Source of the DNA: Mycoplana rhizolycopersici
GTDB taxonomy: Bacteria > Pseudomonadota > Alphaproteobacteria > Rhizobiales > Rhizobiaceae
Reading direction: 5' to 3'
DNA: 64,000 nt
Assembly: GCF_013378445.1 (NCBI RefSeq)
Contig: NZ_JABXYK010000004.1
Coordinates: forward strand, 124,001-188,000
Position numbers and translations under genes: made by a program. The notes beneath the pieces are model-generated. The model had not been told where the DNA came from. It did not search any database and saw only the letters and a list, made by a program, of their open reading frames with translations. Of the stretch, positions 52,273 through 60,874 are shown piece by piece. Position 1 is the first letter of the stretch; each line of letters opens with the position of its first letter.

Positions 52273-53712
52273 TCACGCCGTGATTGCACCTGTCGCGATC
52301 AGGTAGATGGCGAGGCAGGCGCCGAGGACCGCGAGGATGAAGAGCCCGAGCTCCAGCGGCGTGAAGGCCCGTTTTGCCTGTTCCCGGCGCGCGATCAGAT
52401 AAAGGATGGTGCCGGGCGCATAGATCACAGTGGTCAGCAGCAGGTGCTCGGAGCCTGCGGCATAGATCAGTCCGGCGGTGTAGAGCGTGGCAATGCCGGC
52501 GCGAAGGAGATCGCCGCGGCGGGATGCGGGTTCGCCGCCGTAGGTTTCCCCGCTCCAGGCGAGCTTCAGACCGTAGGCCGCGACGAGAAAATACGGGATG
52601 AGAATCATCGAGCTGGTGAGCTCGAGGGCCAGGCGAAAGGCATACTGCGTGAACAACGTGACGATCAGGAAGATCTGGACGACGATGTTGGTCAGCCACA
52701 GCGCGTTCGAGGGAACGCCCTGTGCGTTCTCGTGGGAGAGAAAACGCGGCATGGTCTCGTATTTCGAGGCCGAATAGAGGATCTCGGCTGCGAGCAGCAC
52801 CCAGGAGAGATAGGCCCCGGCAACCGAGATCAGCAGGCCAACGCTGACAAAGACGGCACCCCACGGGCCCACGACTGCTTGCAGCACACCCGCCATCGAC
52901 GGGTTGCGCAGGCCGGCGAGCTCGGCCCGCGGCAGTACGCCATAGGAGAGCAGCGTGACCAGGATCAGCAGGCACAGCACGCCGGCAAAGCCCATCAGGG
53001 TCGCTATGCCCACATCCTCTCGCCTGCGGGCATAGCGCGAATAGACGCTCGCGCCCTCGATGCCGACGAATACGAAGACGGTGACGAGCATCGTCGCGCG
53101 AACCTGGCTGGCAATGTCCGACAGGCCGGCATCCTCACCGCCCCAGAAACTCGCGGCGAACAGCGAGGCATCGAAGTTCAGGGCGACGATGACGATGAAG
53201 AGCAGGATGGGAATGATCTTGGCGAAAGTGACGATGTTGTTCAGCGCGGTCGCCTGCTTGATGCCGCGCAGGATCAGCGCGTGCATGCACCAAAGCAGCA
53301 CCGACGACACGGCGACTGCCGCGATCGTGTTTCCGTCGCCGAAGATGGGAAAGAAGAGGCCGAGCGTGGACTTGATGAGGACGAAGTAGGACACGTTGCC
53401 GAGGAGGGCTGCAGACCAGTAGCCGAGTGCTGACAGAAAACCCGGATAGTTGCCGAAGCCTGCCTTGGCGTAGGCATAGATGCCGGCATCGAGATCGGGC
53501 TTGCGGCGCGACAGCGTCTGGAAGATGAGCGCCAGCATCAGCATGCCGACGCCGGCTATGGTCCAGGCGATCAGCGCGCCGAAGGGACCTGTGGCGCGAC
53601 CGAAGGCCTGCGGTAGCGAGAAGATGCCGGCACCGACCATCGAGCCGACCACCATTGCGGTCAGCGTCCAGAGCGTGAATTTCTGCGGCGTGACCGGCGC
53701 CATGTCTCTCAT
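52273..53712 (-). CDS. Second basic amino acid/polyamine antiporter (APC family)
   Basis: 479 aa, about twelve membrane segments. The N-terminus (ALTAMVVGSMVGAGIFSLP region; ATG at 53712 or 53703) and the segment TVFVFVGIEGASVYSRYA closely parallel the neighbouring ArcD-like protein, pointing to a tandem duplication. A 242-bp gap separates it from that gene, so it may have its own regulation. Substrate is likely arginine, ornithine, agmatine or a related amine. Confidence 0.88.
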   Translation of the reverse strand: MRDMAPVTPQKFTLWTLTAMVVGSMVGAGIFSLPQAFGRATGPFGALIAWTIAGVGMLMLALIFQTLSRRKPDLDAGIYAYAKAGFGNYPGFLSALGYWSAALLGNVSYFVLIKSTLGLFFPIFGDGNTIAAVAVSSVLLWCMHALILRGIKQATALNNIVTFAKIIPILLFIVIVALNFDASLFAASFWGGEDAGLSDIASQVRATMLVTVFVFVGIEGASVYSRYARRREDVGIATLMGFAGVLCLLILVTLLSYGVLPRAELAGLRNPSMAGVLQAVVGPWGAVFVSVGLLISVAGAYLSWVLLAAEILYSASKYETMPRFLSHENAQGVPSNALWLTNIVVQIFLIVTLFTQYAFRLALELTSSMILIPYFLVAAYGLKLAWSGETYGGEPASRRGDLLRAGIATLYTAGLIYAAGSEHLLLTTVIYAPGTILYLIARREQAKRAFTPLELGLFILAVLGACLAIYLIATGAITA

Positions 53713-54038: not shown

Positions 54039-55181
54039 TTGACCAATCGATTGGTACTCCTGCTGACGATGCTTGCGGTTCTTTCCGGCTGCGGGGGGCG
54101 TGCGGTGACCGGGCTTCAGGCCGGGGTCTCCAGTGAGAAAACCGCCGCCGTCGTGCCGATCTTCCTTGCCACCAACCGTGCGCGCTCCGACAATCCGGCA
54201 CTGCCCTATTCGGCCGAACGGTCTCAGGCGCTCAACTTTGCCGAATTCGACGTCGGCATACCCGGAAACCACACGCCCGGCCGGGTGGAGACGAGTTCCC
54301 GCGTTCCTGATCCCGCCCGCCAGTTTGCCGCCGTCGACTACCGCCCGATCGAGGACCGCAGGCGCTTCGTCGCCGCGCTGAACGCGGCCCTGGCCAAGCG
54401 CGCGCCGGCGGATCGGGAGATCTTCATTTTCGTCCACGGCTACAACAACAACATTGCCGAAAGCCTGTTCCGCAACGCCCAGATCACCCATGACTACGGC
54501 ATCAATTCGGTTTCCCTTCACTACGCCTGGCCGTCCGGCGGTGCGATCCCGCTCTATGTCTTCGATCGCGACAGCGTCATCGTCGGCCGCCGCGGGCTGG
54601 CAGAGACGATCGAACTCGCCGCACAGACCAATGCGACGAACGTCGTTCTCGTCGGCCATTCGATGGGGGCTTACGTGGTGATGGAGGCGCTGCGGGACCT
54701 CGCGCTCAGCGGCGGGCAGCGTTACCTGCGCCGGCTCGGCGGGGTGGTTCTCGCCGCACCCGATATCGACATCGACGCCTTCCAAAGCCAGGCGGACGAT
54801 ATCGGCAAGCTGCCGCAGCCCTTCACCATCATCGTTTCGCGACGCGACCGCGCGCTGGGTTTCTCGCGGAGGATCGCCGGCGGCCATCCGCGGGTCGGCA
54901 GCGGCGCCGACATCGCGCTGCTGCAATCGCGCGGCATCACCGTGCTCGACGTCTCGGAACTCGATGGCGGTACGCACAGCGTCTTTGCCAGTTCACAGAC
55001 GCTGATGAAACTGATCGACAACAGCCGCCTGATGCGGGCGACGCTGGACGACGAGAAGGCCTCTACGGAACCGTCGGCCCTTGCCGCAAGCGCCGCCGCC
55101 GTTGAGGGGGCCACCTCCTTGACGCTGTTCCTGCCCGCACGCCTGATCGGCCGAATGGCGACTGCCGCGCCCACCCAATAG
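54039..55181 (+). CDS. DUF900-type alpha/beta hydrolase lipoprotein
   Basis: 380 aa. TTG start at 54039 with GGGG upstream. A signal peptide ends at the lipobox VLSGC. The mature domain has FVHGYNNNIAES (oxyanion region) and the nucleophile elbow VGHSMG with S208; an Asp and His late in the sequence could complete the triad. It is exported to the envelope. The physiological substrate is unknown. A Mrp-like operon starts 145 bp downstream. Confidence 0.85.
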   Translation: MTNRLVLLLTMLAVLSGCGGRAVTGLQAGVSSEKTAAVVPIFLATNRARSDNPALPYSAERSQALNFAEFDVGIPGNHTPGRVETSSRVPDPARQFAAVDYRPIEDRRRFVAALNAALAKRAPADREIFIFVHGYNNNIAESLFRNAQITHDYGINSVSLHYAWPSGGAIPLYVFDRDSVIVGRRGLAETIELAAQTNATNVVLVGHSMGAYVVMEALRDLALSGGQRYLRRLGGVVLAAPDIDIDAFQSQADDIGKLPQPFTIIVSRRDRALGFSRRIAGGHPRVGSGADIALLQSRGITVLDVSELDGGTHSVFASSQTLMKLIDNSRLMRATLDDEKASTEPSALAASAAAVEGATSLTLFLPARLIGRMATAAPTQ

Positions 55182-55326: not shown

Positions 55327-55860
55327 GTGCCATCGGCCGAAGAAAAACGACAGCGAACGGGGCTTGTCCTGCCTACGGGTTTCGCCGGCCTGTGGCTGCT
55401 CCTGTTCTGCCTGTGGCTGATCTTCAACAGTTCGCTCGCCCTGCCGATCCTTGCGACCGGCGTCGTTGCCGCAACCGCGCTGGCCTGGATCTTCACGACA
55501 CGCAGCACGGTCTGGCACTATGTCCGGCTGACGCCGCGCACGCTCTATCACTTTCTCGCCTACACCGGCGTCTTTTTCGTGGAGCTGGTGAAGGCCAACG
55601 TCAATATGCTGCGCTACGTTTATTCGCCGCGCATCGACATTCGCCCGGGCATCGTCAAGATCCGCATGCGGTTGCGCTCGCCGATCGGCCGGCTGGCGCT
55701 TGCCAATTCCATCGCGCTGACGCCGGGCTCGCTCGTGATGGATGTCGAGGACGATGCTCTTTACGTCCACTGGCTGGATGTCAGGACGACGGATATCGAT
55801 GAGGCAAGCGAGATGATTGCCGGGCCGTTCGAAAAGCATCTGGGGAGGGTTTTTGGCTGA
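55327..55860 (+). CDS. mrpE: Mrp/Mnh antiporter subunit E
   Basis: 177 aa from the GTG at 55327, giving the usual MrpE length; a TTG at 55249 would add 26 residues. Two or three membrane segments (GLWLLLFCLWLIF, LPILATGVVAATAL) precede the conserved VELVKANVNMLRYV and NSIALTPGSL segments. It is the first gene of a seven-gene cation/proton antiporter operon. The next gene overlaps its stop. Confidence 0.88.
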   Translation: MPSAEEKRQRTGLVLPTGFAGLWLLLFCLWLIFNSSLALPILATGVVAATALAWIFTTRSTVWHYVRLTPRTLYHFLAYTGVFFVELVKANVNMLRYVYSPRIDIRPGIVKIRMRLRSPIGRLALANSIALTPGSLVMDVEDDALYVHWLDVRTTDIDEASEMIAGPFEKHLGRVFG

Positions 55861-56113
55861 CACGATCCTCCTGTTTGCCGGCTTGCTGATCCTGCTGAGC
55901 ATAGTCTTGTCCGTGCTGAGGCTTGTTCTCGGTCCGACGATGGTTGATCGGGTGGTCGCAATCGACACGCTGACTGTGATCTCGCTGTCGCTGGTGGCGC
56001 TCTATGCCCACCTGTCGGGGCGCTTCGTCTATCTCGACGTGGCCCTTGTCTACGGACTCCTCAGCTTCCTGGCGGTGCTCGCGCTGGCGCGCTTCCTGGA
56101 AAAGGGGCGCTAG
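55853..56113 (+). CDS. mrpF: Mrp/Mnh antiporter subunit F
   Basis: 86 aa with three membrane segments. The TTG start at 55853 has GGGGAGGG just upstream and overlaps the mrpE stop by 8 bp. Family features are LRLVLGPTMVDRVVAIDTL and FVYLDVALVYGLLSFLAVLA. It is a small membrane subunit of the antiporter complex. Confidence 0.9.
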   Translation: MADTILLFAGLLILLSIVLSVLRLVLGPTMVDRVVAIDTLTVISLSLVALYAHLSGRFVYLDVALVYGLLSFLAVLALARFLEKGR

Positions 56114-56115
56114 CG

Positions 56116-56361
56116 ATGCTGGCCGAGCTCTTCATCCTGGTCATCTGCGCCAGCATCCTCGTCAGCGGCATCCTCGCGGTCTCCCTGCGCGGCCTGATGG
56201 CGGCGATGATCAGCGCCGGACTGGCGAGCCTCTTTGCCGCGGTATCCTATGTCCTGCTTGCCGCACCCGATGTCGCGATGGCGGAGGCTGCTATCGGCGC
56301 CGGGCTGTCGACGCTGGTTTTCCTCTACGCCATTCGCAAGACGAACGCCGGAAAGGAGTGA
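56116..56361 (+). CDS. DUF4040/MbhD-like subunit (detached MrpA C-terminal domain)
   Basis: 81 aa, three membrane segments. The segment LAAPDVAMAEAAIGAGLSTL is the hallmark of the MbhD/DUF4040 domain, which in canonical Mrp complexes is fused to the C-terminal side of MrpA. Here it is a free protein, 2 bp after mrpF. That arrangement is shared with Mbh-type complexes of archaea. Confidence 0.85.
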   Translation: MLAELFILVICASILVSGILAVSLRGLMAAMISAGLASLFAAVSYVLLAAPDVAMAEAAIGAGLSTLVFLYAIRKTNAGKE

Positions 56362-56363
56362 CG

Positions 56364-56708
56364 ATGGAACTGATCGGCAGCATCGTCATCCTCGTCGGCG
56401 CGTTTTTTCTGTTCTCGGCAGGCCTTGGGCTTCTGCGCATGCCCGATGCGTTTACCCGCATACAGGCGGGTACCAAGGCGTCCACGCTCGGCAACATCCT
56501 CGTTCTTGTGGGCCTGGGCTTCTATCATCCCGACTGGGCGCTCAAGCTGCTGGTCATCGCCTATTTCGTCATCCTGACGAACCCCATGTCCTCGCACGCG
56601 ATTTCGCGCGCCGCGCATTCCATTCGCACGCCGATGGCGACGGGTACGGTCGTCGACGCGCTGGCCGAACGGGACAGCGAGGCGAAGCAGGAAAGGATAC
56701 GCCGATGA
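56364..56708 (+). CDS. mrpG: Mrp/Mnh antiporter subunit G
   Basis: 114 aa with three membrane segments. The family motif GLLRMPDAFTRIQAGTKAS is present. AAGGAG lies upstream of the ATG at 56364, 2 bp after the preceding stop. The charged C-terminal tail (ERDSEAKQERIRR) overlaps the next gene by 4 bp. Confidence 0.92.
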   Translation: MELIGSIVILVGAFFLFSAGLGLLRMPDAFTRIQAGTKASTLGNILVLVGLGFYHPDWALKLLVIAYFVILTNPMSSHAISRAAHSIRTPMATGTVVDALAERDSEAKQERIRR

Positions 56709-57394
56709 AGCGGTTCTTCGGTGCCGTTGCGGTCCTTCTCTTCGGTGTCGTTCTGTGGGGCGTGGCGACGGGCTATGCCGAGCGCGGCGCTCCATCGGAA
56801 CTCGCCATGCGCTATCTGGCCGAGGTCCCGGCCGATCTTGGCGCCGCAAACGTCGTCACCGGCATCCTGATCACCTATCGAGGCTTCGATACGCTGGGCG
56901 AAGTCGCCGTGCTGTTCATGGTGGCGGCGACGGTCGGCCTTCTGTTGGGTGGCGAAAGCCGAGGCACTTCCGCCGCTTCCCGGCCTGCATCGCGGCCGCC
57001 GAGCGAACTTGTCAGCAATGGCGCCGAGGTCGTGCTTCCCGTCATCTTCCTGTTCGGCACCTATGTCATCGTCAACGGGCACCTGTCCGCCGGCGGCGGC
57101 TTTCAGGGCGGTGCGGTCGTCGCGTCCGCCGTAGGCCTAATGGTGCTGGCGCGACCGTCGGCCGTGCTTGACCACGGGTTTCTCAGCATCGCCGAATCCC
57201 TTGCCGGCGTGTTGTACGTCGCGACCGGCATTCTTGGCCTGATCCTCGCAGGTGGCTTCCTGGACAGCCGGTTCCTGCCGCCCGGCGTGTTCGGCGCCTT
57301 TGTCAGCGCCGGCGCCATTCCGCTGATCTCCGCACTCCTCGGCATCAAGGTCGGAGCGGAGCTCAGTGTCATCATCGATCGTTTCCGAAGCTGA
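56705..57394 (+). CDS. mrpB: MrpB subunit with N-terminal MbhE-like extension
   Basis: 229 aa, longer than the usual 140 or so for MrpB. Residues 1-85 resemble the MbhE domain (GAANVVTGILITYRGFDTLG), normally part of MrpA. A Ser/Pro linker follows, then the MrpB domain (LPVIFLFGTYVIVNGHLSAG, GGFQGGAV). So MrpA's last domain is attached to MrpB here. It starts at the ATG overlapping the mrpG stop. Confidence 0.88.
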   Translation: MKRFFGAVAVLLFGVVLWGVATGYAERGAPSELAMRYLAEVPADLGAANVVTGILITYRGFDTLGEVAVLFMVAATVGLLLGGESRGTSAASRPASRPPSELVSNGAEVVLPVIFLFGTYVIVNGHLSAGGGFQGGAVVASAVGLMVLARPSAVLDHGFLSIAESLAGVLYVATGILGLILAGGFLDSRFLPPGVFGAFVSAGAIPLISALLGIKVGAELSVIIDRFRS

Positions 57395-57404
57395 CGGGGG
57401 CAGG

Positions 57405-57773
57405 ATGGGACTGCCGATTTCGCATGTGCTTCTGGTGACGGGTCTGCTGCTGATGCTGGTCGGGCTGTGGGGCGTCTTCGCGCACAGGAACATCCTGCGC
57501 ATCATCATCGGCTTTTCGATCCTCAACACCGGTATCCACATCGTCATGGTCGCGACCGGCTATGTGACGGACGGCACCGCGCCGATCATAGACAAGGCGC
57601 TGCCCGTGGGGGAGGCCGTCCGCAGCGCCGTCGATCCGATCCCGGCCGCCCTTGTTGTGACGGCAATCGTCATCGGCTTTTCCGTCACCGCTGTCATGCT
57701 CTCCTATGCCGTCAGGCTCCATCAGGCCCGCAAGACACTCAGTATCGACGCCTTCACGGAGTCGAAATGGTAG
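57405..57773 (+). CDS. mrpC: Mrp/Mnh antiporter subunit C (NuoK-like)
   Basis: 122 aa, three membrane segments, homologous to NuoK. The ATG at 57405 is preceded by GGGGGCAGG. Conserved stretches are NILRIIIGFSILNTGIH and DPIPAALVVTAIVIGFS. It overlaps the next gene by 7 bp. It helps form the proton path between the large ND-like domains. Confidence 0.92.
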   Translation: MGLPISHVLLVTGLLLMLVGLWGVFAHRNILRIIIGFSILNTGIHIVMVATGYVTDGTAPIIDKALPVGEAVRSAVDPIPAALVVTAIVIGFSVTAVMLSYAVRLHQARKTLSIDAFTESKW

Positions 57774-60700
57774 AGGGGCTCATCCATCCGCTGAACATCT
57801 TCCTGCTGGGGCTTGGCGGCGGCTTCCTGATACCGCTGCTCTATCGCCTGTCGAAGCGGCTGCCGGCGGTCGCCTTCTGGGCGGCGCTCGCAGGCATTGC
57901 AGCGCTGTCGGCGATTTGTTTCTGGCGCGTTCTCGAAGGGGGAGACGCGATCGAAATCGAGACGGCGGGCAGCCTGCCTCCGCTGGCGATCAGCCTGCGC
58001 TTCGGGGTCGCCGAGGGTTATTTTGCCTTTCTCGTCAATCTTGTTGCGGTGCTCGGCGCCTGGCAACTGTGGCGCGCCTTGCGGGAAAGCTACACGACCC
58101 TGCTTCTCTACCTGATCCTCGTCATGGGCATCAACGGCATGATCATGACGCGGGATCTGTTCAATCTCTTCGTCTTCCTGGAAATCGTCTCCGTCGCAAC
58201 CTACGGCCTGTTCGGGCTGGGGCGGTCGCCGGCGGCGCTTGCGGCGAGCTTCAAGTACATCATGGCGACGGTACTGGCCTCGTCCCTTTTCCTTCTCGGT
58301 GCAGCGCTTCTCTATCACGTCACCGGGACGCTCAGCATCGACGAGATGATTGTCCGGCGCGAGCTGATCGCGGGGCCGGTCGGGGCGACGGCGCTGATAC
58401 TGGTGTTGGCCTGCCTCGTCATCGAGTTGAAACCATACCCCGCCAATGGCTGGGGCCTGGACGTCTATGAGACCGCGCCCGCAGGCGTTGCCGCGATCGT
58501 TTCGGTCGGCGTCTCTGCCGGCGTGTTCTTCGCGCTGCTGAAGCTTCTGCCGCTGTTCGAACCGCATCTGACGCTGATCGCCGTTTCGGCGGCGATCACA
58601 TTCCTCGCTGCCAATCTGATCGGGCTGCGGCAGGCGAACGTGCAGCGGATGCTGGGATGTTCCTCAGTCGCGCAGATGGGGCTCCTGACGATGGCGCTTG
58701 CGCTGCTGTCACAGTCTGGAGTCGCCGAACTGCATATGGCGTTCGTGATCGGTGGGCTTTTCGCCAATCACCTGTTCGCCAAGGCGGGATTGTTCTGGCT
58801 GGCAGGCGCTCTCGGCCGCGAGCGGATCCGCGACTGGAACGTACTGTCCACCGGCGCGCCTTTCGTGATGGTCTTTGCAGCACTGCTCGTGGCGATCGCA
58901 GGGCTGCCGCCGTTCCCCGGCTTCTGGGCCAAGTGGGAACTGGTGATGCGGCTGGCGGCGAGCGGGGACCACGTGTGGATCGCCGTCGTGCTGCTCGGCT
59001 CGCTGCTCGAAGCCGCCTACATGTTCCGGTGGTTCTGCCGGGCGGTGGGCGGCCAAAGAAGCGAGGATGCCACGGTTCCGGCATTGATGCGCTGGCGCCG
59101 CGGTCTGATGCCTCCTGCTGCATGTGTGGCGCTGCTTCTGGCTGGCGGTGTTGTTGCGGCAGGGGAGGCGGGGGCGGCCTCGGCATGGCTGTTTGCCCCG
59201 CTGGCGGCCGGTGCGGTTTTGCTCGCTGCCGAAGGCCTCCCCGGCAGGGGGAAATGCGTTCTGATGCTGCTCTTGGTATCCGCCGTGGGGTTCTGGCTGC
59301 TCCAGGGCGTCGGCGGCATCAGCGGGCTGTTCGGCGCGCTTTTTCTGGCAGGCGGCGTCGTGATCGCTTCGGCGGCACTTTATCGCGACGATGCGCGGCA
59401 CGGCTACTACCCGCTGATGGCCGTCTTGCTGCTGTCGATGATCGCACTGTTGCGGGCAACAACAAGCCTTGAGTTCTTCTTCTGCTGGGAAATGGTGACG
59501 CTCGCCTCTTCGTTTTTGCTTGCCCTTTCTCCGCCGGCGCGCCGATATGTCCTGCAGTTCTTTCTCTTTTCGCTCGCTGCCGCCTTCCTCCTGCTGGCCG
59601 GCTTTGGACTTGTCGCAGCCACACTCGGAACGACCAGCCTTTCCGCCTACGCAACGGCCGGGCCTGCTGCGGCACCCGCCTTTGTGCTGCTTGCGATCGG
59701 CTGCTTGATCAAGATCGGCGTCATCGGCGTGCATGTGTGGTTGCCCAACGCACATGCGACGGCCGACGGCGACCTGTCGGCCATATTCTCCCCGCTCGTC
59801 ACCAAGGTTCCGGCTTTCGGACTGTTCATGGTAGCCTATCTGGCCACCCGCTCGCAGGTCGGGCTCGAGCTGGCACACGTTGTCGGATGGATCGGCATGC
59901 TGACGGCTGCCGGAGCCGCGCTGCTGGCGCTGCACGAGACAGACATGAAGCGGATGCTTGCCTATTCGAGCCTGAGCCAGACCGGATATATCGTCGCCGC
60001 CATAGCGCTGATGAGCCACCTTGGCTGGGTCACTGCGCTCTATCTCGTCGCAAACCACCTGATGGTGAAAGGCATACTGTTCCTGACAGCGACAGCGATC
60101 ATCTATCGCACGGGCCTGCGACGGCTGGAGGACTGCGGCGGCCTTGCGCGCAGGATGCCGCTCACCTTCGTCGTGTCGGTCGCCGCCCTGGTGTCGATGT
60201 CAGGGCTGCCGCCGCTGGCGGGCTTCGGCGGCAAGTGGCTGCTTCTGACAGCCATGCTGCAGAAGGAGTGGTACGGCCCGCTTGCGCTTGGGGCCTTCGC
60301 CACGCTGATCGGCCTTCTCTACATGTTCCGTTTCGGCCATGCGCTGTTTCTGGGGCCGCCCAAACGCGAGCTTACGGACGTGCGTGAAGCGCCAGCCGCC
60401 CTTCTCGTTCCGCAGTTCGTGCTGCTTGCGGGCATCCTGTTGCTGTCGTTCTTCCCGAAGCTCTTCATGGTTCCGGTGTCTGCCGCGATCGACCCGCAAT
60501 TCGCGTCTACGCTTGTCTGGCAAGGCATGTCGCTCGAACTGATCTACGCCTACTGGGATCCGACCAGGGCGATTGTCATCGCCGTCGTGATCGCAGCACT
60601 CGGCTGGCTTGCCCTTTGGCTGATCTACCGTGGAGGCCGCCGCCCCGGGCAGGTGCCGGGTGTGGCCCGCTTCTATCAATTCTACCGGGCGATGCTGGCC

Positions 60701-60874
60701 CCGCTGCAGAAGGCCCCCGTCGAGCGCTTCTGGGGCGGAGTGGCAATCGCCGTGGAGCGGGGGGCTGGGGCGGCGCGTCGCGTGTACACTGGCGACGGCC
60801 AGACCTATGCGCTTCAAGTCCTGTACTATGTCATAGCGCTTTATTTCGTGGCGATCGAAATCCCAAAATGGTGA
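57767..60874 (+). CDS. Double ND-type (MrpD-like x2) fusion subunit
   Basis: 1035 aa, about twice the length of MrpD. Two proton-translocating ND2/ND4/ND5-like modules are fused. The first has YETAPAGVAAIVS, a membrane lysine in ASFKYIMATV, and QRMLGCSSVAQMG near residues 293-305. The second has GVHVWLPNAHATADG and KRMLAYSSLSQTG near 728-740. No MrpA-type ND5 gene is present elsewhere in the operon. I infer that this one protein supplies both ND modules of an Mrp/Mbh-like complex. Frame is continuous, so the fusion is not an assembly join visible from here. Confidence 0.88.
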   Translation: MVEGLIHPLNIFLLGLGGGFLIPLLYRLSKRLPAVAFWAALAGIAALSAICFWRVLEGGDAIEIETAGSLPPLAISLRFGVAEGYFAFLVNLVAVLGAWQLWRALRESYTTLLLYLILVMGINGMIMTRDLFNLFVFLEIVSVATYGLFGLGRSPAALAASFKYIMATVLASSLFLLGAALLYHVTGTLSIDEMIVRRELIAGPVGATALILVLACLVIELKPYPANGWGLDVYETAPAGVAAIVSVGVSAGVFFALLKLLPLFEPHLTLIAVSAAITFLAANLIGLRQANVQRMLGCSSVAQMGLLTMALALLSQSGVAELHMAFVIGGLFANHLFAKAGLFWLAGALGRERIRDWNVLSTGAPFVMVFAALLVAIAGLPPFPGFWAKWELVMRLAASGDHVWIAVVLLGSLLEAAYMFRWFCRAVGGQRSEDATVPALMRWRRGLMPPAACVALLLAGGVVAAGEAGAASAWLFAPLAAGAVLLAAEGLPGRGKCVLMLLLVSAVGFWLLQGVGGISGLFGALFLAGGVVIASAALYRDDARHGYYPLMAVLLLSMIALLRATTSLEFFFCWEMVTLASSFLLALSPPARRYVLQFFLFSLAAAFLLLAGFGLVAATLGTTSLSAYATAGPAAAPAFVLLAIGCLIKIGVIGVHVWLPNAHATADGDLSAIFSPLVTKVPAFGLFMVAYLATRSQVGLELAHVVGWIGMLTAAGAALLALHETDMKRMLAYSSLSQTGYIVAAIALMSHLGWVTALYLVANHLMVKGILFLTATAIIYRTGLRRLEDCGGLARRMPLTFVVSVAALVSMSGLPPLAGFGGKWLLLTAMLQKEWYGPLALGAFATLIGLLYMFRFGHALFLGPPKRELTDVREAPAALLVPQFVLLAGILLLSFFPKLFMVPVSAAIDPQFASTLVWQGMSLELIYAYWDPTRAIVIAVVIAALGWLALWLIYRGGRRPGQVPGVARFYQFYRAMLAPLQKAPVERFWGGVAIAVERGAGAARRVYTGDGQTYALQVLYYVIALYFVAIEIPKW

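Follow-up and report, generated by a model that had tools for sequence, protein, structure and literature searches.

How does a multisubunit antiporter operon come to lack MrpA, and what does its product do in the cell? These questions are raised by seven genes of the alphaproteobacterium Mycoplana rhizolycopersici (Rhizobiaceae), located at positions 55327-60874 of a 64,000-nucleotide stretch of DNA (assembly GCF_013378445.1, contig NZ_JABXYK010000004.1, positions 124,001 to 188,000), the whole of which is called the window below. Seven frames on the + strand encode, in this order, MrpE, MrpF, a free MbhD, MrpG, an MbhE-MrpB fusion, MrpC and a protein in which two antiporter (ND) units are joined, the double-ND protein. 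Judged from sequence comparison, the operon probably encodes a stand-alone antiporter exchanging a monovalent cation, most likely Na+, for H+ at the expense of the proton motive force; it would be of the Group 3 Mrp kind, with the membrane-arm architecture of the Pyrococcus furiosus complex MBS, and would have descended from a larger complex by loss of a redox arm.

Subunits of the operon and their kinship with MBS

An initial annotation of the DNA had described this gene order, the lack of MrpA in the operon, the division of the MrpA tail between two genes (the free MbhD, and MbhE on MrpB) and the presence of two ND units in one protein. All of this was recovered: in a profile search of the translated frames, every domain exceeded its Pfam gathering score, and Pfam and NCBIfam agreed. 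The MrpE/MbsA-like subunit (55327..55860, 177 aa, GTG start; MNHE, 127 bits) is followed by the MrpF/MbsB-like subunit (55853..56113, 86 aa, TTG start; MrpF_PhaF), the free MbhD/MbsD-like subunit, which is a piece of the MrpA tail (56116..56361, 81 aa; MbhD), the MrpG/MbsC-like subunit (56364..56708, 114 aa; PhaG_MnhG_YufB), the MbsE-like MbhE-MrpB fusion (56705..57394, 229 aa; MbhE and MnhB), the MrpC/MbsG-like subunit (57405..57773, 122 aa; Oxidored_q2) and the double antiporter subunit, a fusion of the MbsH and MbsH′ types (57767..60874, 1035 aa; two Proton_antipo_M stretches). The sequences of all parts except MrpE were compared with PDB, and for seven of the seven the best match was a chain of P. 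furiosus MBS: MbsB for MrpF (6u8y_B, 5.8e-16), MbsD for MbhD (6u8y_D, 1.6e-14), MbsC for MrpG (6u8y_C, 3.1e-23), MbsE for the fusion (6u8y_E, 1.1e-36, residues 5-226 on 6-227, nearly full length), MbsG for MrpC (6u8y_G, 1.1e-22), and MbsH and MbsH′ for the first and second ND units (9.1e-45 and 1.1e-43). The proposed relation to Mbh-type modules is borne out by these matches.

The double-ND protein was modelled with AlphaFold2 (pLDDT 85.3, pTM 0.89), and 14 + 16 membrane helices were counted on the model. The first half, ND1 (residues 1-470, 57767..59176), is MbsH/MrpD-like, with 14 helices and the residues E139, K222, K259, H335 and K389. The second half, ND2 (residues 471-1035, 59177..60871), is MbsH′-like and like the N-terminal part of MrpA, with 14 + 2 helices and the residues E575, K649, K680, H764 and K823. 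Its additional part begins with transmembrane helix 15 (TM15; residues 932-957, 60560..60637), continues through a shortened Loop 1 and lateral helix (residues 958-1006, 60638..60784), modelled as an interfacial pair of helices (966-980 and 983-1005), and ends with TM16 (residues 1011-1034, 60797..60868). By fold comparison (VIA-align), ND1 was matched to MrpD (7qru_D; Z 41.1, 456 residues, 2.3 A) and ND2, over model residues 472-1032, to MbsH′ (6u8y_X; Z 38.8, 513 residues, 2.9 A); since the Z scores of numerous complex I chains are only a few units away from these, fold alone does not pick the family. ND2 thus keeps TM15, the lateral helix and TM16, as the second antiporter unit of the MBS type does, and from the model the lateral helix would be placed across ND1.

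Is ND2, then, a copy of ND1? The annotation had supposed that the ND part of MrpA was replaced by an ND duplication. In a 60-row tree of ND units with MrpA, MrpD, NuoL/M/N, Hyf and MbhH, ND1 groups with MbsH (support 96) and ND2 with MbsH′ (97), as in an earlier 43-row tree (89 and 96). The halves join different partners, which rules out a recent copy and, together with the retained TM15, lateral helix and TM16, speaks against the supposed replacement. As ND2 is of the MbsH′ type, and MbsH′ TM1-14 has been set beside MrpA TM1-16 (PMC8415708; papers are cited by PMC number throughout), the two antiporter units are retained as in Mrp.

To which known system does the operon belong? Group 3 Mrp has been defined by the lack of mrpA and the presence of one or more mrpD, and it includes members inside larger respiratory complexes; MbsE has been described as an MbhE-MbhF fusion (PMC8415708). 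Group 3 examples with two D genes are the cyanobacterial mrpCD1D2EFGAB and Microbacterium mrpFGBCDDAE (PMC5703873) and the multi-subunit MrpEFGBBCDD described for the symbiont of Solemya velum (PMC4287430). The operon has this gene content: no mrpA, mrpD-type units and the other Mrp subunits. At the same time the membrane-arm set of MBS is present, namely free MbsD, the MbsE-type MbhE-MrpB fusion, MbsG, MbsH and MbsH′. The layout had been called intermediate between Mrp antiporters and Mbh-type modules; the subunit set is instead that of the MBS membrane arm and of published Group 3 Mrp, with no transitional patchwork. A match to an already characterised Mrp group, one of two outcomes named beforehand as contrary to the annotation, was thereby largely found in Group 3; as regards the other, a separate MrpA working with the operon, no MrpA gene lies nearby.

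The operon shares with P. furiosus MBS (PDB 6U8Y; PMC7684303) the E, F, G, MbhD, MbhE-MrpB and C subunits and two antiporter units, the second with a lateral helix and TM16; it differs in joining MbsH and MbsH′ in one chain, in a shorter Loop 1 and in lacking the MbsJ-N redox arm. Like the P. furiosus Mrp encoded by mrpEFGBB′CD (PMC8415708), it stands alone without canonical mrpA and has mrpD units, whereas the MbhE of that complex is fused to MbhD and the MbhE here to MrpB; unlike in the Group 3 examples above, its two D units are fused and are kin specifically to MbsH and MbsH′. Canonical Mrp of Groups 1 and 2 (PDB 6Z16, 7QRU, 7D3U) likewise follows the scheme of a cation/H+ exchanger with two antiporter units and one lateral helix, and has the conserved Glu/Lys/His and cation-path residues. 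Its MrpA bears an ND5-like part and an MbhD/MbhE tail (joined to MrpB in Group 2), next to a single, separate MrpD, but here the counterparts of the N- and C-terminal parts of MrpA lie in separate genes: MbhD is free, MbhE sits on MrpB, and both ND units are in another protein, of which ND2 is MbsH′-like in the trees. The complexes of the MBS, MBH and Ehr types are set apart by their peripheral redox arm, which is missing here, and by Loop 1, which spans 50 residues in the window as against 67 and 65 in redox-bearing relatives and MbsH′. An Mbh [NiFe] hydrogenase is not indicated either: the host genome gave no match to the large-subunit family PF00374 at E up to 0.001, and its only PF00346 match is in Nuo.

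A plasmid of the haloarchaeon Halobaculum (L146) has E-F-G-DUF4040-B-C-D without MrpA, and two ND units are fused there as well, in a protein of 1096 aa (L146:6856-10146); in contrast to the operon it has three ND units in total, the third as a separate adjoining gene. Its fusion may be independent, because its halves joined neither ND1 nor ND2 in the 43-row tree, where their branches are long. In a literature search whose reach mostly excluded subscription journals, no description of the fused chain or operon, or of its loss history, was recognized, and PMC12361115 covers complex I fusions and not this one. The general layout falls within the described Group 3; what is added here is that some relatives with the fused gene bear a redox arm.

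Relatives with a redox arm and the length of Loop 1

Do relatives of the operon retain an electron-transfer arm? A total of 101 loci were read, of which 9 repeat a contig, leaving 92 distinct loci. In 23 of these, the double-ND gene has a NuoH-like gene behind it, and no such gene follows in 68 loci with at least 1.7 kb downstream, which are called bare here; two of the bare loci (L102 and L084) have just 1.7-1.8 kb, enough to reveal NuoH alone. The last locus, L129, ends inside the double-ND gene and is counted with neither kind. All five redox genes, encoding NuoH-, NuoB-, NuoC- and NuoD-like proteins and a NuoI-GltD fusion, are present in 19 of the 23 loci, and in three others (L113, L126 and L128) the redox genes run off the contig ends. 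These relatives (e.g., L116, L051 and L134) have the same membrane genes as the operon, including the fused double-ND gene, and differ by the genes downstream and by a conserved Loop 1 of 67 residues. By its predicted gene content, the product of the redox-bearing loci is an MBS-like respiratory complex. Its NuoD-like proteins are unlikely to be [NiFe] hydrogenases because they have one CxxC or none: one (CRIC or CRVC) in 10/10 rows of a divergent branch, whereas the ten other rows that were read lack it (L042-L052 versus L114-L135). This difference may mark different acceptors. No NuoB/C/D/H/I-like redox-arm gene was found among the window frames downstream of the operon.

PF00346 was counted in 23 genomes. 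Only high-scoring, Nuo-type copies, without a divergent NuoD, were found in 12/12 genomes with a bare operon, whereas 9/9 genomes with a redox operon add a divergent copy adjoining the operon; in two genomes of the genus that lack the operon, all copies are of the Nuo type.

Outside the divergent branch, the redox-bearing loci with an assigned class are all gammaproteobacterial. The branch itself comprises ten loci, six in the order of the window and four elsewhere in its phylum, with double-ND proteins 34-37% identical to that of the window; the range is 34-49% for all redox-bearing relatives and 41-49% outside this branch. In the redox-bearing operons, for example those at L116:6521-11819 and L051:1-4973, the last gene joins a ferredoxin domain of NuoI type with a GltD-like NAD(P)H oxidoreductase; the L116 protein scores 674 bits with PRK13984, under the model cut-off of 946. 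Downstream of the operon in the genome of L135, a second stretch (G736:C40:73971-74279) resembles the last 104 double-ND residues and is 43% identical to those of L126; it is perhaps a separate TM15-TM16 piece. The redox-bearing locus L126 itself comes from a genome (G734) of a phylum whose other 51 genomes, out of 52, gave no match at 1e-45, and either transfer between phyla or a binning error is possible. The MbhE-MrpB gene at L144:7843-8541 bears the NCBI name 'hydrogen gas-evolving membrane-bound hydrogenase subunit E', a misleading label where no hydrogenase gene adjoins it.

The two kinds of locus also differ in a block of the double-ND protein. In MbsH′, helix HL and Loop 1 have been described, and Loop 1 helps to build a chamber at the redox site of MBS (PMC7684303). 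Taken as the stretch between the last residue of TM15 and the YTG motif, with the interrupted L120 and the cut L083 and L129 excluded, the Loop 1 interval is 67 residues in 22/22 full-length redox-bearing rows and 65 in P. furiosus MbsH′, as against 47-58 in 68/68 bare rows; these are the rows of 67 loci and of the window, where it is 50 (residues 957-1006). Its pairwise identity is 0.81 in the divergent branch (10 rows), 0.71 in the other redox-bearing rows (12) and 0.33 in bare rows; the corresponding values are 0.62, 0.58 and 0.65 for ND1 and 0.78, 0.64 and 0.65 for the ND2 core. TM15 (0.40 in bare versus 0.53-0.59 in redox-bearing rows) and the lateral helix (0.37 versus 0.50-0.59) are likewise less conserved in bare rows, and TM16 (0.63 versus 0.60-0.65) is not.

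Origin and proposed function

Was the arm lost by the bare lineage or gained by the others? Bare rows form a single clade (support 100), which is drawn among the redox-bearing rows in all four tree sets: double-ND (28 bare and 23 redox-bearing rows), small-subunit (26 and 16), two-half (9 and 11) and concatenated (13 and 12). Support for the nesting is mixed: 99 for bare plus eight redox-bearing rows and 94 at the base in the double-ND tree, 94 in the small-subunit tree, 96 (ND2) and 92 (ND1) in the two-half set, and 99 in the concatenated set. Tree rooting on its own is not decisive, and two arguments independent of outgroup rooting can be added. One is gene order. The order of MbhD and G is readable in 86 distinct loci, with MbhD first in 75 and G first in the other 11; 67 of the 68 bare loci have MbhD first, the order being cut in the last (L083), and among the 23 redox-bearing loci G is first in 10, MbhD in 8, and the order is cut in 5 (G is first in L129). 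The mbs operon, judging from its lettering, presumably has G before MbsD, unlike the Mycoplana operon. G also comes first in Halobaculum and in P. furiosus Mrp (PMC8415708), as in the 10 redox-bearing loci, and so MbhD-first, common to the bare and eight redox-bearing loci, looks derived. The other is parsimony: since the sister MBS has an arm, loss takes one step under either topology and gain takes two.

Taken together with Loop 1 and the MBS outgroup, gene order points to loss of the arm. It is fairly likely that one lineage lost the NuoH-B-C-D-(NuoI-GltD) arm, kept its fused proton units and cation module under purifying selection, shortened Loop 1 and later reached a patchy distribution among Hyphomicrobiales, Burkholderiales and a few Rhodobacterales, a redox-driven respiratory complex being turned back into a stand-alone secondary antiporter. 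The ancestor would have had the electron-transfer arm that survives in gammaproteobacterial and other relatives, and Loop 1, which contacted this arm, would have shrunk after its loss.

How could the remaining membrane arm work? Residues important in Bacillus pseudofirmus Mrp (PMC5703873, PMC9568556) and of the cation path (PMC7419157, PMC9568556) were taken as reference, and conservation was counted in our own alignment of 86-93 rows. MrpD E137/K219 correspond to E139/K222 of ND1 and MrpA E140/K223 to E575/K649 of ND2; MrpF D32/R33/D38 are kept (constant in 86/86 rows), MrpE T113-P114 correspond to T132-P133, MrpG P81 to P74 (87/87), MrpA E687 to MbhD E57 (87/87), MrpA R773/E780 to R59/E66 of the MbhE-MrpB fusion, and MrpB F41 to F133. 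Gaps apart, the mapped path residues are identical in every row counted, and ND1 K222 is a lysine as in MrpD, where MbsH has E219. The different ion specificity suggested by the annotation finds no support in these conserved cation- and proton-path residues. Because they are kept, proton-driven export of a cation through two proton units is expected; activity, direction and ion are what we infer from them. MrpE, MrpF and MrpG would form a cation module with the MrpB half of the fusion, and MbhD, the MbhE half and MrpC a coupling layer; ND1 and ND2, the latter in the place of MrpA, would be two covalently joined proton-conducting units, clamped together by the ND2 lateral helix. Protons would enter via ND1 and ND2, and charge coupling would drive the cation out by the MbhD/MbhE/C/F/G path.

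Several observations weigh against loss of the arm or against this function. In one redox-bearing locus, L122, NuoH is separated by some 3 kb from the NuoB, C and D genes that come after it, and there is no NuoI-GltD gene in 8 kb downstream. Several key forks have support below 95 (94 in the double-ND and small-subunit trees), in the double-ND, small-subunit and concatenated sets a single long branch serves as the MBS outgroup, with long-branch warnings, and forcing the redox-bearing rows into one clade costs 5.4-11.4 log units and is not rejected by the approximately unbiased (AU) test (p 0.24, 0.218, 0.289 and 0.118). The window MrpC has N41 where MbsG has the acidic E37; this site is not sorted by state (D 15, S 5, N 2 in redox-bearing rows; D 49, G 16, N 3, S 1 in rows without the arm), and, D being commonest in both, it was dropped as a marker of redox-linked versus stand-alone forms. 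Finally, the stand-alone Mrp of P. furiosus, also without an energy-input module, is reported to take Na+ in and move H+ out as pH falls (PMC8415708), so that the direction of transport by the operon complex may differ.

Could the textbook direction hold instead, with the fused stand-alone antiporter ancestral and the arm gained by the gammaproteobacterial relatives and the divergent ones? MBH, MBS and complex I have been derived from an Mrp-like and a hydrogenase module (PMC7419157, PMC7684303), and the AU test (p 0.12-0.29) leaves a redox clade standing; yet a similar module would have been added twice, as the sister MBS already bears an arm, the MbhD/G swap would require a reversal or a second swap, the Loop 1 of redox-bearing relatives (67) is near that of MbsH′ (65) and unlike the bare form, and bare rows are nested in all four tree sets, which makes gain improbable. 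A modest chance is left that the complex is the one described and its task another, such as transport of K+ or Ca2+, the use of Na+ entry to expel H+, or the sensing of pH in place of Na+ export: Mrp complexes specific for K+ or Ca2+ have been reviewed (PMC5703873), the Group 3 Mrp of P. furiosus is reported to act upon a drop in pH (PMC8415708), and two further Mrp loci are already in the genome, whereas the Na+-handling residues of Mrp are kept and no sequence feature pointing to another ion was seen.

A partner encoded elsewhere, be it either MrpA, complex I or a redox arm supplied in trans, is highly improbable, even though two MrpA and all the Nuo antiporter units are encoded in the host genome (5.6 Mb, 78 contigs). 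Nine PF00361 stretches were found in it, three in Nuo, two in each of two other Mrp loci and two in the operon, and Nuo and both Mrp loci lie on other contigs, none near the operon. Each MrpA (open frames of 1000 and 799 residues) has its own Mrp locus, where searches with the window proteins recovered A, C, D, F and G parts, the E part in one only, and the place of the N-terminal part of MrpA is already filled by ND2. PF00346 and PF00146 match once each, both within Nuo, PF00374 is without a match, and the contact site, Loop 1, is shortened.

Loss of the arm, if true, reverses the accepted direction from Mrp to MBH, MBS and complex I; Mrp-like stand-alone modules then need not be ancestral, which bears on complex I trees rooted on Mrp. 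The loci also bear on the open question of how a redox arm is coupled to the antiporter-like membrane arm in complex I-like enzymes: relatives whose double-ND proteins are 41-49% identical to that of the window, outside the divergent branch, differ by the whole arm and the Loop 1 block, so that exchanging Loop 1 can test its role, and it becomes measurable how an orphan membrane arm behaves.

Coding integrity, distribution and flanking genes

Neighbouring genes overlap by 8 bases (E/F), 4 bases (G/MbhE-MrpB) and 7 bases (C/double-ND), and the remaining gaps are of 2, 2 and 10 bases; this tight spacing suggests that the seven genes form one predicted transcript. For the seven genes, dN/dS is 0.05-0.21 against L056 and 0.11-0.22 against L059, and all seven are therefore under purifying selection. 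The double-ND gene is a single open frame across both units in 89 of the 92 distinct loci; L083 and L129 stop at contig ends and L120 is interrupted. Chance, a frameshift or an assembly artefact was ruled out as the source of the layout by this count and because the same gene order recurs across many loci. A search for that order in other genomes, proposed in the annotation, gave E-F-MbhD-G-[MbhE-B]-C-[ND-ND] in 83 of the 101 loci, repeats included, E-F-G-MbhD-... in 11 and a cut order in 7.

The closest relative in the double-ND tree is Rhizobium subbaraonis, followed by Mycoplana azooxidifex. At E up to 1e-60, the operon was found in 5/7 genomes of its own genus, 0/30 other genomes of the family and 1/24 sampled elsewhere in the order; at 1e-90 it was found in 13/347 genomes of the order and 6/398 of the phylum, its own genome included. 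The 67 bare MbhD-first loci comprise 48 from Hyphomicrobiales, 15 from Burkholderiales, 2 from Rhodobacterales and 2 more from the order of the window. In a tblastn scan of named genomes, which gave 458 relatives irrespective of the fusion, the best 80 were kept. As fused sequences served as queries in collecting the loci, distant relatives with unfused units may be under-represented; a search with ND2 only, at E up to 1e-40 in the 398 phylum genomes, returned the same 6 fused loci and no unfused ND2.

In the flanks of the 92 loci no constant neighbour of the bare operon was found, the top group being RND pump-like (31/92, on mixed sides and strands). An APC-family amino acid permease is encoded two genes upstream of the operon (window 52276-53712, - strand), and permeases similar to it on visual inspection occur close to the operon in 5 loci, one of them Paraburkholderia L095. 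Directly upstream lies a gene for a DUF900 alpha/beta hydrolase (54039-55178, + strand), homologues of which flank the operon, on either side, in 21 loci.

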